Positions 7,780 through 12,529 of a stretch of 64,000 bases of DNA are shown here, piece after piece. Each line of letters opens with the position of its first letter. Position 1 is the first letter of the stretch. Source of the DNA: Prochlorococcus sp. MIT 1314 (GTDB lineage Bacteria > Cyanobacteriota > Cyanobacteriia > PCC-6307 > Cyanobiaceae); the NCBI RefSeq assembly GCF_034093315.1, contig NZ_CP139300.1, positions 248,001 to 312,000 on the forward strand. The letters run 5' to 3'. A program made the position numbers and the translations under genes. The notes under the pieces were generated by a model. It ran no database searches. It was not told the origin of the DNA and saw only the letters and a program-made list of their open reading frames with translations.

Positions 7780-9813
7780 ATGGTTCATTCTATACATCCA
7801 AGAACTATTCAGGAAGTTAAAGAAAAGTCAGATATTGTCGAAGTAATATCTGAACATATTGTACTTAAGAAAAAAGGGAAGGAGTTTGTTGGTATTTGCC
7901 CTTTTCATGATGATAAAAAACCCTCTATGACAGTATCTCCAAGTAAACAATTTTATTATTGTTTTTCTTGTGGTGCTGGTGGGAATTCTATAAAATTTTT
8001 AATGGAATTTACACGTGCTAATTTTTCTGATGTTGTCCTTTCTCTTGCTAAGAAAAATAATATTAATGTTGAAAATCTTGATGGCCCTCAAGTAGAAGCA
8101 TATAAAAAACAATTATCTAAAAAGGAAGAACTGTATAAAATACTAAGAGTCACTAAAAATTGGTTTAAGTCTCAATTAAATAATTCTTTAGGTGTTGATG
8201 CTATGAAATATTTAACATCTAAGAGAAACTTTAATAACAAAATTATTGATAACTTTGAATTAGGTTTTGCTCCAAACTCATGGAATGATTTATTTGAATA
8301 TCTTTCCAAGGTAGAAAAATTTCCTATTAATCTTATTTTAGATTCAGGCCTTGCAATTTCTAAAGATAATTCTGACAAAATCTATGATCGTTTTAGAAAT
8401 AGATTAATTGTGCCAATACATGATATGCAGGGACGTGTAGTTGCCTTTGGGGGAAGATCTCTGGATGGTCAGGAACCTAAATATCTTAACTCTCCTGAAT
8501 CTGAAATATTTGAAAAGGGGAAAATGTTGTTTGCATTCGATAAAGCATCTAGCAATATAAGAAAAATGGATAAAGCTATAATTGTGGAAGGTTACTTTGA
8601 TGTAATCTCTCTTCATTCTAAAGGTATTACCAATTCTGTAGCTTCTCTTGGTACTGCATTAAATAAGTATCAAATTTCCCAATTATGTAGATGTACAGAT
8701 AATAAAAATATAATCTTGAATTTTGATTCTGATAATGCAGGGATAAGAGCCACAAAAAGAGTAATAAAAGAGGTGGAAAGTCTATCTCTCTATGACCAAA
8801 TTAATTTAAAAATACTTCAACTTAATGGTTTTAAAGATCCTGACGAATATCTTAAAAGACATACTCCAGAAGACTATTTTAATTTAATTGATAAATCATC
8901 CTTTTGGATTGATTGGGAGATTGATCAGATATTTAACAATAGAGATCTAACTAAGTCTGAAGATTTTCAGACTGTTATTTATTCATTGGTAAAGTTGTTA
9001 AGTAAATTACCTCAATCATCAACCAGAACCCATTATTTACAAATAGTTTCCGAAAGATTAAGTAAAGGTCAAGCCAGGTTGGCGATACAGTTCGAACAGG
9101 ATTTAAGAAATCAAGTCAAAGGATTTCGTTGGCACGGCAGAGCAAAAAAATTTGAGCAACCCCATGAAATTTCTCGACGTGAAAAAAATGAATCTGAAAT
9201 AATTTTTTATTATCTTCATTGTCCTAATCTTAGGCTCTTTATTCGTGATGAATTTCTTAAAAGAGAAATTAATTGTTTTAATACTAATTATATTCAAAAT
9301 GTATGGGAGGCCATTTCAAAAATCGAACAAAATAATCTTGGTCCAAATTATTTAAATGAATTAAAACAATCAAATAATCAAATTCTTAAAAAGGATTTTT
9401 CTGATATTAACTTAATTTCTCTTCTGCCAGATTACTTAGCTCTTAATAATGGTGAATTATCAAATAAAATTAATATTTTTGTTAATCCAGATGAGTTGTA
9501 TTTAACAATGCTTAGTAATCCCAAAGATAATTTACTTGGTACTTTATCACTTATTGAAAGATATAATTCTCTAAAAAGATGTAGACACTTGATCGAATCT
9601 TGGGGATCTCAAAGATTAAAAACGTTAGAAAATTGTATATCTATTCTAATTGATACTTCCTCTTCAGGTTCTTCAAATACCAATAAAGAGATAGATGATC
9701 TTTTTAAAGATTTAAATTCAGATGCGATTAAATTTCAGGAACTATATTACTTAGAAAGAAAACACATAAACTTTTTAGACAAACAACGCTGTGGTAATTT
9801 CATCGCTAGTTAA
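7780..9813 (+). CDS. dnaG: DNA primase
   Basis: Synthesises RNA primers at the replication fork. 677 residues. The CHC2 zinc-binding domain is complete, with C40, H43, C61 and C64 (CPFHDDKKPS...YYCFSCGAGG). The DnaG core follows (YDRFRNRLIVPIHD...GRVVAFGGRS about 203-227). The TOPRIM acid motifs are IIVEGYFDVI (about 266-275) and NFDSDNAG (about 313-320). The C-terminal DnaB-interacting part is divergent and Asn-rich. Start is ATG at 7780. It is monocistronic and convergent with the putative metallopeptidase gene 16 bp away. Confidence 0.97.
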   Translation: MVHSIHPRTIQEVKEKSDIVEVISEHIVLKKKGKEFVGICPFHDDKKPSMTVSPSKQFYYCFSCGAGGNSIKFLMEFTRANFSDVVLSLAKKNNINVENLDGPQVEAYKKQLSKKEELYKILRVTKNWFKSQLNNSLGVDAMKYLTSKRNFNNKIIDNFELGFAPNSWNDLFEYLSKVEKFPINLILDSGLAISKDNSDKIYDRFRNRLIVPIHDMQGRVVAFGGRSLDGQEPKYLNSPESEIFEKGKMLFAFDKASSNIRKMDKAIIVEGYFDVISLHSKGITNSVASLGTALNKYQISQLCRCTDNKNIILNFDSDNAGIRATKRVIKEVESLSLYDQINLKILQLNGFKDPDEYLKRHTPEDYFNLIDKSSFWIDWEIDQIFNNRDLTKSEDFQTVIYSLVKLLSKLPQSSTRTHYLQIVSERLSKGQARLAIQFEQDLRNQVKGFRWHGRAKKFEQPHEISRREKNESEIIFYYLHCPNLRLFIRDEFLKREINCFNTNYIQNVWEAISKIEQNNLGPNYLNELKQSNNQILKKDFSDINLISLLPDYLALNNGELSNKINIFVNPDELYLTMLSNPKDNLLGTLSLIERYNSLKRCRHLIESWGSQRLKTLENCISILIDTSSSGSSNTNKEIDDLFKDLNSDAIKFQELYYLERKHINFLDKQRCGNFIAS

Positions 9814-9829
9814 TATTTTTAGTTTAAAT

Positions 9830-10297
9830 TTATAGGCAGTATTCTTTAATCAAATTTTTTACTTTTTTGGGTTTGTCTTCAAGAACATAAGCTTCTACTT
9901 CTTTTGCATAAGTCCCAGAAAAATTGGAAGTAGAGAACTCAAGAGCTTTCCTCTTACTTTGATGTAATTTACTTTCTAGTTTTTTTATATCTCCTACTAT
10001 TTTATTGTTATTACATTTTTGAATTGCATGAGTGGCTTCATGTCTTAATGCTTTTCTTATTGCCCTTTCTATTTTGTGGTTATCTTTGCTTGGTTGTTGC
10101 TTTATTTTTCTATAATTTGTTTTTCTTTTTGCATTTTCAGTACAAATTATTATCTTATTTTCTTCAAAATTATGTAATCCTTTAATCTTTTTATTTAATA
10201 AACACTCAACTTTATTTTCTTCAACTATGTAATTTGCTTTTATCAATAAGTCAAGAATCTCTTTATCTAATTTGCTTAGAAATATTATAAATTCCAT
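9830..10297 (-). CDS. Putative HExxH zinc metallopeptidase, third gene of the umuDC operon
   Basis: 155 residues, no family I can name. The key feature is HEATH at residues 86-90, a zinc-peptidase HExxH signature, followed about 43 residues later by KEVEAYVLE (132-140). That second part resembles the ExEAxxxA segment supplying the third zinc ligand in gluzincin-type peptidases. Around HEATH the protein is rich in Lys/Arg, with five Cys overall. There is no signal peptide, so it is probably cytoplasmic. It follows umuC with only the shared homopolymer between them, so it probably sits in the SOS operon. Possible analogues are ImmA/IrrE-like or SprT/Spartan-like peptidases; both are inference. 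A non-enzymatic role is not excluded. Confidence 0.7.
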   Translation of the reverse strand: MEFIIFLSKLDKEILDLLIKANYIVEENKVECLLNKKIKGLHNFEENKIIICTENAKRKTNYRKIKQQPSKDNHKIERAIRKALRHEATHAIQKCNNNKIVGDIKKLESKLHQSKRKALEFSTSNFSGTYAKEVEAYVLEDKPKKVKNLIKEYCL

Positions 10298-10314
10298 TTT
10301 TTTTTTTTTTTTTT
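10297..10314. repeat. 18-nt T/A homopolymer joining umuC stop and next start
   Basis: Eighteen consecutive T on the plus strand. In the sense (minus) direction this reads TG-A18-TG. The first A completes the umuC stop codon TGA and the last A begins the ATG of the metallopeptidase-like gene. No Shine-Dalgarno sequence can fit, so translation of the downstream gene probably depends on reinitiation after umuC. A homopolymer this long is prone to length change and to polymerase slippage, and to sequencing error. Confidence 0.9.
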
Positions 10315-11600
10315 CACTTTACTATAGTTGGTATCTGATTGATATCGGTTGTAGATGAGCGACTTAAGAAATTCTTATTCATTGTCCAACTTTGTGGCTT
10401 TTTTGTAATCGCCCATGTAATTGCATTGTTATTAAATCTTTTATTTAATAAATCAATCGTTCTCATAAGATTTGCTGATTTTTTTAAGTCTTTCTGAGAT
10501 TTGTAATTGATAACTGATTGCTGTAAATATTCGCTATTAGTTAAACCCTGCATTAAAACTCCAGCTTTTGAGAATTTATGTTCGGGATTATAAATTTCTT
10601 TAGATAATTCAACTACTATTTTTAAAATATTATTTGTGTCGTCTGTTGCATTTGTAAGTTTTCTATGAGCACTTCTTTGATAATTTTGATTTGAATATTT
10701 ACTGGTTCTGGCAAATACTCTAATATCAGATGATTGCAAATGCAGACTTCTCATTTTTTCAGACGCTTTTATTGCGTGAGTCGCCAGTGCTTGGGTTAAG
10801 TCTTCTAATTTTGTGACAGGAGTACCAAAACTCCGGCTTACCTGAATTTCTTTTTTTGAGTTCTTGCTTTTTTCTATAGGCAAACATTTATGACCTTTCA
10901 GTTCTAATTGCAATCTTTTCCCAACGATGCCTAATTTCTTAATAATTTCATTTTCTTTCATATCTCTTAACTCTCTAGCATTTTTAATACCTTTACTTTT
11001 TAACCAATTAGAGGTTTGTTTTCCGACTCCCCATATCTCATCTACACTAATTCTTTTCAAATAATTATTCTCATTGCTGGTTCTAGCTAAATCAAATATT
11101 CCAGCTGAATAATCAATATTTTTAGCTAATTTATTAGCAATTTTTGCTCTTACTTTATTTTCTCCTATTCCTACTGTTATGGTAATCCCTAGATTCTGAT
11201 ATATTAATGATCTTATGCTTCTAGCCCAAGGATATAGATTTTTATCATTAGGTCTAGAAATTGAGACAAATGCTTCGTCAATAGAATAAATTTCTATCTG
11301 TTCACAGTAGCTTTTTAGTAAATTCATTAGCCTTCTGCTCATGTCGCCGTAAAGCACGTAGTTTGAGCTTAAGACTGCTACATTTAATTTGTTTAATCTT
11401 TCTTTCACCTTAAAATAAGGAGCTCCCATTTTGATTTTTAAAGCTCGCGCTTCAGGACTTCTTGCAATGATACATCCGTCATTATTAGATAAAATTACTA
11501 CTGGTTTATTTCTTAAATGAGGATTAATATTTTGTTCACATGATGCGTAGAAATTATTGGCATCTATAAGAGCTATAGCATCAATACTTGAAATTTTCAT
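10314..11600 (-). CDS. umuC: DNA polymerase V catalytic subunit (Y-family)
   Basis: Translesion polymerase used after DNA damage together with UmuD'. 428 residues, close to E. coli UmuC length. Y-family active-site motifs are present: LIDANNFYASCEQ (metal ligand D13) and YSIDEAFV (D108, E109). Next come the helix-hairpin-helix stretch EIWGVGKQTSNWLKSKGI and the little-finger region RSFGTPVTKLEDLTQAL. The start ATG overlaps the umuD stop by 4 bp (ATGA), the classic coupled umuDC arrangement. The stop is shared with the A18 homopolymer. Regulation is expected through the LexA-type box upstream of umuD. Confidence 0.96.
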   Translation of the reverse strand: MKISSIDAIALIDANNFYASCEQNINPHLRNKPVVILSNNDGCIIARSPEARALKIKMGAPYFKVKERLNKLNVAVLSSNYVLYGDMSRRLMNLLKSYCEQIEIYSIDEAFVSISRPNDKNLYPWARSIRSLIYQNLGITITVGIGENKVRAKIANKLAKNIDYSAGIFDLARTSNENNYLKRISVDEIWGVGKQTSNWLKSKGIKNARELRDMKENEIIKKLGIVGKRLQLELKGHKCLPIEKSKNSKKEIQVSRSFGTPVTKLEDLTQALATHAIKASEKMRSLHLQSSDIRVFARTSKYSNQNYQRSAHRKLTNATDDTNNILKIVVELSKEIYNPEHKFSKAGVLMQGLTNSEYLQQSVINYKSQKDLKKSANLMRTIDLLNKRFNNNAITWAITKKPQSWTMNKNFLSRSSTTDINQIPTIVK

Positions 11601-12013
11601 AAATAGTTATGTATTGAATAAATAACAACTCCCCATATCTGTACATCAATATGGTTTTTAAACCTAAAATCAGGATAATTGTGATTTTCTGCTTTTAAAT
11701 ATAATTCATTATTTTTTATAGATAATCTTTTTATTGTAAATTCCCCGTCTATCATTGCAATGATAATATTCCCAGGCCTAGCTGTTAAACTCTTGTCTAC
11801 TATTATTAAATCTTTATCTTTGATTCCTGCATTTATCATTGAGTCACCTTTAACTCTAAGAAAAAAAGTGCTAAATGGATTAGATATTAAATGTTCATTT
11901 AAATCAATATTTTCTTCTGTATAGTCATCTGCAGGAGAAGGAAATCCTGCTGATACCGAATCAGTTAATAAGGGGATCTTAAGCTTTTTAGTAGTTGAAT
12001 CAAAGAAATCCAA
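11597..12013 (-). CDS. umuD: DNA polymerase V subunit UmuD (S24 autoprotease)
   Basis: 138 residues. UmuD cleaves itself upon RecA activation to give UmuD', the partner of UmuC. The cleavage site A22-G23 (SAGFPSPADD), nucleophile S58 (GDSM) and Lys95 (FTIKRL) all keep the spacing of E. coli UmuD (24/25, 60, 97), so autoproteolysis should be intact. It lacks the N-terminal DNA-binding domain of LexA. TTG at 12013 is the only usable start, because an in-frame TAA lies two codons upstream. A LexA-type operator sits 14-28 bases upstream. Confidence 0.94.
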   Translation of the reverse strand: MDFFDSTTKKLKIPLLTDSVSAGFPSPADDYTEENIDLNEHLISNPFSTFFLRVKGDSMINAGIKDKDLIIVDKSLTARPGNIIIAMIDGEFTIKRLSIKNNELYLKAENHNYPDFRFKNHIDVQIWGVVIYSIHNYL

Positions 12014-12025
12014 GACTTAAATTAA

Positions 12026-12041
12026 TAGTATATATGTACTA
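12026..12041 (-). promoter_or_regulatory. LexA-type SOS box of the umuD operon
   Basis: The plus-strand bases 12027-12040 read AGTATATATGTACT, a palindrome with one imperfect base (AGTAC-N4-GTACT expected). It agrees with the cyanobacterial LexA consensus that I recall (RGTACNNNDGTWCB) at 13 of 14 positions, and flanking T and A extend the symmetry to 16 bp. It lies 13 bp before the umuD start and overlaps AT-rich promoter-like sequence (TATACT on the minus strand), where bound repressor would block initiation. Confidence 0.7.
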
Positions 12042-12112
12042 TATAATGAAAATTCAAAAAATAGTTAGTTATTAAAATTTTATATATTAATTTTAGATTA
12101 AATCTAATTTTT

Positions 12113-12529
12113 TTAAGAACGATGGTAAGGGGAGTTGTTAGATATAGAAATAGCTCTATAGATTTGCTCGATTAGGAATAATCTAGCTAATTCATGGGGA
12201 AAAGTTAAAGGAGAAAGACTTAATATAAGATCTGATTTTTCTTTTATATCTGAACTAATTCCATCAGTATCGCCGATTAAGAAACCAATTTTTTTATTTT
12301 TAAAATTTAAGAATAAAGAACATAGTTCAACTGAATTAAACTGCTTCCCTTCTTCACTTAGGCAGATAATAATATTGTTATTGGATCTAATATTATTTAA
12401 ATTAAAAGTCTTTAACTCATTAATGGTAAGTTCAGGCATTCTTTTTTTGTATTGATTAATTCCATCTCTAATCCAAAATTTCTTTATTTTGCCGACAGCA
12501 TAAATTGTTAGTCTATTACTCTGAAGCAT
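12113..12529 (-). CDS. rlmH: 23S rRNA (pseudouridine-1915 N3)-methyltransferase RlmH
   Basis: A SPOUT-fold methyltransferase acting on helix 69 of 23S rRNA in assembled ribosomes. The 138-residue product has the family's SAM-binding knot: [14 protein letters not shown] (about 79-92; the usual GGADG reads GDTDG here), then [23 protein letters not shown] and the C-terminal YHR. The N-terminal [25 protein letters not shown] matches RlmH. It lies 19 bp downstream of the small Asn-rich gene and 99 bp before the umuD start. Confidence 0.93.

Follow-up and report, generated by a model that had tools for sequence, protein, structure and literature searches.

The canonical umuDC operon consists of a LexA box followed by umuD and umuC, whose reading frames overlap by 4 base pairs (bp). 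For Prochlorococcus the control of these genes has already been published: umuCD is listed as LexA-regulated in several high-light Prochlorococcus in PMC3091678, and PMC2921402 reports that a LexA motif precedes umuC and umuD and that umuC expression stays high for a prolonged time under ultraviolet (UV) light in PCC9511. Here we analyzed a 64,000-nucleotide stretch of Prochlorococcus sp. MIT 1314 (contig NZ_CP139300.1; this whole stretch is called the window below) which carries all four canonical features, and because LexA control and UV expression are on record, the umuDC part of this locus is not new. In contrast to the canonical operon, the genus of the window adds a third gene 5-16 bp downstream of umuC. 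In the window this gene encodes a 155-amino-acid protein with an HExxH motif, a putative gluzincin-type metallopeptidase which falls in PHROG 16003, a phage family without a name or assigned function. We find that the gene stays behind umuC in most host genomes with a clear copy, and that in T4-like cyanophages its relatives overlap the gene of the sliding clamp. A linkage of this family to umuDC or to a clamp was not found described in the open-access literature that we searched.

Linkage to umuC in hosts and to the sliding clamp in phages

The HExxH gene has a match in 25 of 60 genomes, its own included, and in 117 of 300 genomes of the host's taxonomic family at E <= 0.1, the weakest of these 117 being distant paralogues. 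For the analysis of gene order we kept 97 genomes with a clear copy, namely 24 of the window's genus (its own included) and 73 of other genera at E <= 1e-12, a threshold which left out one genome at 1.3e-12 (G307). The gene lies directly downstream of umuC in 83 of these 97 genomes, a count that does not represent independent events as the genomes are related and many are incomplete. These 83 comprise the 24 of the genus, 28 that were read in sequence and 31 placed by coordinates only (umuD within about 2 kilobases (kb) on the same strand and contig). Among the remaining 14, eight have a standalone copy, one has an inverted umuC and five were set aside (two at contig ends, one because its umuD is on a different contig, and two with short-type copies only). 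In the window, umuC and the HExxH gene are 16 bp apart; other members of the genus have a gap of 5-11 bp, and outside the genus it measures 34-355 bp. Conservation of the umuC neighbor, a check proposed on the basis of the sequence alone, is thus wide.

The surroundings of the standalone copies were read for about 2.5-3.5 kb on each side at seven loci and for 1.5 kb only at the eighth; by eye they include rpmI-rplT at one locus (L052) and genes resembling malate:quinone oxidoreductase and lepA at two others (L061, L062). The umuD gene itself has a match in 264 of the 300 family genomes. We fetched 15 further umuD loci from elsewhere in the family, of which two end within or at the end of umuC, one has no umuC match and 12 are informative; dnaG lies near umuD in nine of the 15. 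None of the 12 readable loci has the HExxH gene after umuC, and the idea that it belongs to every umuDC operon of the family was rejected on this count. The two therefore occur without each other, yet the pair is kept in most genomes with a clear copy. On a tree of the family the umuDC-linked label requires 7 changes as opposed to 25 in shuffles, with bootstrap values that are not fully settled, and because of this difference the linkage appears to be clustered, and to have been made or broken several times.

A scan of viral contigs confirmed 313 relatives, and host and phage profiles are clearly homologous (hhalign probability 100, E 9.5e-56). Phage context was taken from the best 80 of the 313, ranked by likeness to the window protein, of which 78 had both genes readable. 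In these T4-like cyanophage contigs the end of the gp45 sliding clamp gene runs into the start of the homologue at 77 of 78 loci (overlap of 4 bp at 73 and of 1 bp at 4); the 78th gave a value of +14, with no correction for its alignment beginning only at residue 6. The names of the phage replication genes were checked with Pfam in one contig, where gp45, Pyr_excise (pyrimidine-dimer glycosylase), gp44, a D12 methylase and clamp-loader A surround the homologue, and the T4-like homologue usually adjoins the glycosylase and the clamp loader. Among isolates, the homologue directly follows the processivity factor in DSL-LC02, and in S-SRM01 it follows a clamp-sized gene annotated as 'DNA polymerase'. 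The DSL-LC02 gene (L267 6001-6411; OR032571.1 132103-132513) encodes a 136-amino-acid member of the HExxH family that is annotated as serine hydroxymethyltransferase, probably wrongly. At one phage locus (L195 152-3861) a 717-amino-acid protein and a MoxR/CobS-type ATPase are encoded upstream of the clamp; the 717-amino-acid protein has no Pfam match, and the gene pair recalls the MoxR-vWA pair of jumbo phages treated in PMC7824862, the accessible part of which does not mention an HExxH gene. The word 'peptidase' is also absent from the text of the paper on phage S-CREM2 (PMC10665884), which carries a homologue annotated as 'metallopeptidase'.

On the tree, rooted at its midpoint, the umuDC-linked genes belong to a host group separate from the phage group (support 100/92), while two host copies of phage type (L071, L072) nest inside phage branches. 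Phage-type copies in host contigs stand beside CRISPR-associated-looking genes (by eye) at L072 and L073, and the L073 copy is broken by an in-frame stop. Other genera of the class have up to five family matches per genome, and Synechococcus elongatus, used as a control, also gave a match. Three related genomes (L068, L069, L070) have a second, shorter copy between secG-like and groEL-like genes (by eye), and these short-type copies form a clade of their own. Apparent signal peptides were seen by eye in the paralogues L074 11622-12230, L079, L080, L085 and L089, which retain HExxH and, mostly, the four cysteines conserved in the family.

Layout of the locus and its LexA box

The unit lies in a genome of 1.70 Mb on one contig, and its features in the window are as follows.

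12027-12040, minus strand: LexA-type operator AGTACATATATACT, 14-27 bp before the umuD start (matrix match)
11597-12013, minus strand: umuD, S24 autoprotease subunit of polymerase V (pol V), 138 amino acids, TTG start (Pfam PF00717, E 5.3e-34; NCBIfam PRK10276.1 above cut-off)
10314-11600, minus strand: umuC, Y-family polymerase, 428 amino acids (PF00817, E 4e-39, PF11799 and PF13438, above cut-off)
10298-10313, minus strand: gap of 16 bp between umuC and the HExxH gene, all A on the coding strand, without a LexA-like or terminator-like site
9830-10297, minus strand: HExxH gene, 155-amino-acid putative gluzincin-type metallopeptidase of the PHROG 16003 family
7780-9813, plus strand: dnaG primase, convergent with the umuDC-HExxH operon, a conserved flank outside the unit

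Both umuD and umuC are complete, full-length open reading frames (ORFs) with Pfam domains, and they overlap at 11597-11600. UmuD scores above the cut-off of the NCBIfam model for the pol V autoproteolytic subunit (163.4 bits, cut-off 110), and UmuC scores above the Pfam cut-offs for IMS, IMS_C and DUF4113 and below the NCBIfam cut-off for UmuC (332.9 versus 431 bits). A scan of 9700-12200 found no terminator-like site. An earlier sequence-only reading had described this layout, with a LexA box, umuD, umuC, a 4-bp overlap and a 155-residue HExxH ORF, and each element was borne out, all on the minus strand; its view of an SOS-type umuDC operon is supported by the NCBIfam match of UmuD, the Pfam domains of both proteins and the LexA box. 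Counting the flanking A of the ATG and of the stop codon, the A tract at 10298-10313 extends to 18 nucleotides and is possibly prone to slippage. When the window was compared with loci L107-L186, the mean synonymous difference was about 0.12-0.14 in umuD, umuC and rlmH (10314-12529) versus 0.24-0.26 in the HExxH gene and dnaG (7780-10297), a step which sits at the end of umuC and might reflect recombination or a sweep.

The operator AGTACATATATACT is the top match to a LexA matrix in the whole window, with 13.6 bits against 11.0 for the runner-up. The matrix rests on 12 distinct picocyanobacterial sites published in PMC3091678, with no umuD site among them. Sites of recA, lexA and similar picocyanobacterial genes that resemble one another were used; three divergent predicted sites (two ssb and P9515_18121) and the Nostoc sites were excluded, so the matrix is somewhat idealized. 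A site identical to the operator stands before umuD in 72 of 80 close relatives. Upstream of umuD, a site of at least 13 bits was found at 76 of the 79 Prochlorococcus loci with upstream sequence (the others score 7.4, 5.9 and 4.8), and a site of at least 12.5 bits at 10 of 11 loci in other genera (8.3 at the eleventh). Judged by its sequence, the operon promoter thus carries a LexA box, as members of the SOS (LexA) regulon do. The 150 bp upstream of the HExxH gene in the window contain no LexA-like site (best -2.6 bits). In Synechococcus CC9311, according to PMC3744912, mitomycin C raises umuDC plus a downstream gene cluster, and co-induction behind umuDC is therefore possible, though shown there for genes other than the HExxH gene.

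The HExxH protein, its family and its predicted fold

Translation of the ORF confirmed the two motifs that had first drawn attention to this protein, HEATH at residues 86-90 and KEVEAYVLE at 132-140. None of the ten residues that we checked, among them H86, E87, H90, E133 and four cysteines (C32, C52, C95 and C154), varies in any of 81 close sequences, a set made up of the window and 80 relatives. In the same 81 sequences the ratio of nonsynonymous to synonymous change (dN/dS) is 0.158 for the HExxH gene, 0.134 for umuC and 0.138 for umuD. Residues that never change among 25 diverse host members include H86, E87, H90, E133, A136, E140, P143 and the four cysteines, and H86, E87, H90 and E133 are also invariant in 44 host-plus-phage members. 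This conservation indicates that the HExxH gene is a real, constrained gene. Homologues without HExxH would have spoken against the peptidase reading; the motif is invariant in all three sets and is not a chance match. The third metal ligand had been left between E133 and E135. As E133 is unchanged and E135 is replaced by Q in 2 of the 25 diverse members, E133 is the likely ligand, and the predicted metal site is formed by H86, E87, H90 and, probably, E133.

Searches of Pfam, NCBIfam and PDB sequences with the HExxH protein gave nothing significant. PHROG 16003 matches residues 11-154 of the window protein (E 2.8e-11) as well as six tested relatives (weakest E 6.5e-4), so the protein, at first thought to match no family, belongs to a known but unnamed one. 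It had also been suggested to act like ImmA/IrrE or SprT, and by profile searches and hhalign it is a member of neither family. In a Pfam comparison of 44 members, of which 25 of 27 families were listed, there were weak echoes of M76 (9 of 44), WLM (3 of 44) and SprT (2 of 44). Peptidase M78 (PF06114), the family of ImmA/IrrE, was rejected as it is absent from the families listed, has no match in the strain's own genome and gives an hhalign probability of 2; the alignment goes no further than the HExxH helix, and phage rows alone reach a probability of 9. SprT-like membership was likewise rejected, with matches in two members at best E 0.084, below the cut-off, and an hhalign probability of 4. 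The M78 and SprT alignments for hhalign were built from genome matches, and five column-shuffled M78 controls gave 0.1-0.4. These profile signals point to a shared HExxH helix and not to membership. The strain's own genome has a separate SprT-like gene (G000:C1:1107338-1107679), its sole SprT-like match.

The protein resembles SprT/Spartan and WLM/Wss1 in being a small HExxH zincin with weak Pfam echoes and a distant structural match to Wss1, but it differs in scoring below the family cut-offs and in its third ligand, probably Glu. In SprT the third ligand is His. ATP23 (M76, PF09768) gives the commonest weak echo but never rises above its curated cut-off: the best match has E 0.0012, the cut-off of 25.2 bits was passed in none of 40 genomes, and the profile has no match in the window's own genome. 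Membership in M76 was rejected accordingly. Three weak M76 matches turned up in the 40 genomes; that in G004 (E 0.054) is none other than the umuC-linked gene.

AlphaFold2 modeled the window protein and a phage relative confidently, with predicted local distance difference test (pLDDT) scores of 88.9 and 94.9, respectively. In these models one helix carries HExxH near its end, and the conserved Glu belongs to a helix further along the chain (in the window protein, E133 on helix 130-139). Foldseek found six matches at E <= 0.001 among predicted viral structures, with template modeling (TM) scores of 0.62-0.68 by query length, including proteins of cyanophages S-CBP42, Syn5, ACG-2014f and S-N03. 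In a second comparison, with solved structures, IrrE/PprI ranks 1, 2 and 14 for the window model (Z 6.9, 6.6 and 6.2; 90-91 residues aligned), tied with the catalytic domain of lethal factor (Z 6.5), while for the phage model lethal factor comes first (Z 6.3) and PprI only 19th (Z 5.2). Lower-ranked matches include ArdC, Wss1 (window model, Z 4.2), minigluzincins and YbeY-type proteins, and most chains at Z >= 4 belong to what we take to be zincins or zincin-like domains. Because no Z value reaches 8 and the tool describes such lower scores as common, we read these matches as pointing to the zincin class only. The predicted fold is therefore a probable zincin of gluzincin type, without kinship to any single matched structure. 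The earlier proposal of a putative zinc metallopeptidase is thus strengthened by a zincin-like fold in both models and the invariant HExxH, from which we infer zinc binding and proteolysis.

Readings of function

The reading that we tentatively place first is a peptidase associated with forks or DNA damage and co-transcribed with umuDC. The HExxH protein would be a small cytosolic zinc metallopeptidase of gluzincin type, in which H86 and H90 would bind the metal, E87 would act as the general base and E133 would serve as third ligand. Upon LexA cleavage the gene would be co-transcribed with umuDC, and the peptidase may cut or remove a protein substrate at damaged or stalled forks, its activity rising with translesion synthesis. 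In phages, translational coupling of a relative to the phage's own sliding clamp would serve a like need. A replication-linked role draws its main new support from the clamp-operon context in phages, a hint and no proof, and it is because phages show this second association with replication genes that the fork reading stands slightly ahead of a general peptidase.

A number of observations weigh against this reading. The umuC-linked copies have no convincing LexA box of their own (best 7.5 bits in 200 bp upstream), and SOS control would therefore depend solely on read-through. Full-length copies occur away from umuC in 8 of the 97 genomes, and none of the seven standalone promoters scored has a LexA box (best 4.1 bits), so an own box in standalone copies was rejected. 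Five of the eight standalone genomes lack a umuD match, although just one of the five is near-complete, and in G085 (completeness 99%) two clear copies are present with no match for umuD. At L275 umuC and the HExxH gene occupy different strands, about 1.1 kb apart, which a local inversion may explain, and the 12 readable umuDC loci elsewhere in the family have no HExxH gene after umuC. Expression data for the HExxH gene were not found in the open-access literature, where a search by locus tags around umuC returned umuC only. Several paralogues look exported by eye, and Foldseek found no significant solved structure in PDB for either model, to which the low Z values of the second comparison add. 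In T7-like cyanophages the homologue lies just before the RNA polymerase gene (Syn5, P60) or one gene off (S-CBP42, S-TIP28), and in S-CREM2 and S-N03 it lies amid mostly unnamed, non-replication genes; the link to the clamp, strong in one group of phages, is therefore not universal. For the SOS unit of umuDC and a peptidase first suggested for this locus, the linkage to umuC therefore held, and a dedicated SOS role is put in doubt by the standalone copies, the promoters without a LexA box and the genomes without umuD.

It is possible, if a little less so, that the protein is a general cytosolic zinc peptidase of picocyanobacteria whose gene, in an ancestor of the Prochlorococcus lineage, settled between umuC and dnaG and has not moved since, with SOS read-through being incidental. 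Such a peptidase accounts for the host data almost as well as the fork reading: the standalone copies without LexA boxes, the retention of the gene without umuD, the genomes of other genera with as many as five family matches, and the umuDC loci elsewhere which lack the gene in 12 of 12 readable cases and keep dnaG near in 9 of 15. It fits less well with a umuC linkage retained across many genera, with a gap narrowed to 5-16 bp in the window's genus and with the separate linkage to replication genes in phages.

A stronger version of the fork-associated reading is doubtful. It would make these proteins an undescribed protease family, common to picocyanobacteria and their phages, that partners the sliding clamp and the translesion polymerase at the fork, under SOS control behind umuC in hosts and coupled to gp45 in T4-like phages. 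The family would be unrelated by sequence to Spartan/Wss1 and perhaps gated by its four invariant cysteines.

We consider it unlikely that the protein is an ImmA/IrrE-like regulatory protease which cleaves a repressor or an anti-factor upon DNA damage. It shares with ImmA/IrrE (M78) the predicted fold class, the top structural matches (tied with lethal factor chains) and an HExxH helix followed by a glutamate helix with the E-x-x-A signature of M78 proteins; it differs in having no sequence-profile membership, in the low rank of PprI for the phage model and in being flanked by umuC and dnaG and not by a repressor gene. Less likely still is an origin in phage-host conflict, with phages cleaving host proteins early for takeover or counter-defense and host copies being captured or anti-phage: the place before RNA polymerase in T7-like phages (near the end of the early region, by analogy with T7), the phage-type host copies within phage branches or near CRISPR-like genes and the antirestriction protein ArdC among the fold matches would fit it, but the umuDC-linked genes form a separate host group and the copies kept by T4-like phages sit in the replication module.

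If the fork-associated reading is true, the HExxH gene would open a testable route to understanding how stalled forks are cleared of protein in some of the most abundant photosynthesizers of the ocean. Its context also provides a hypothesis of function for the unassigned phage family PHROG 16003.

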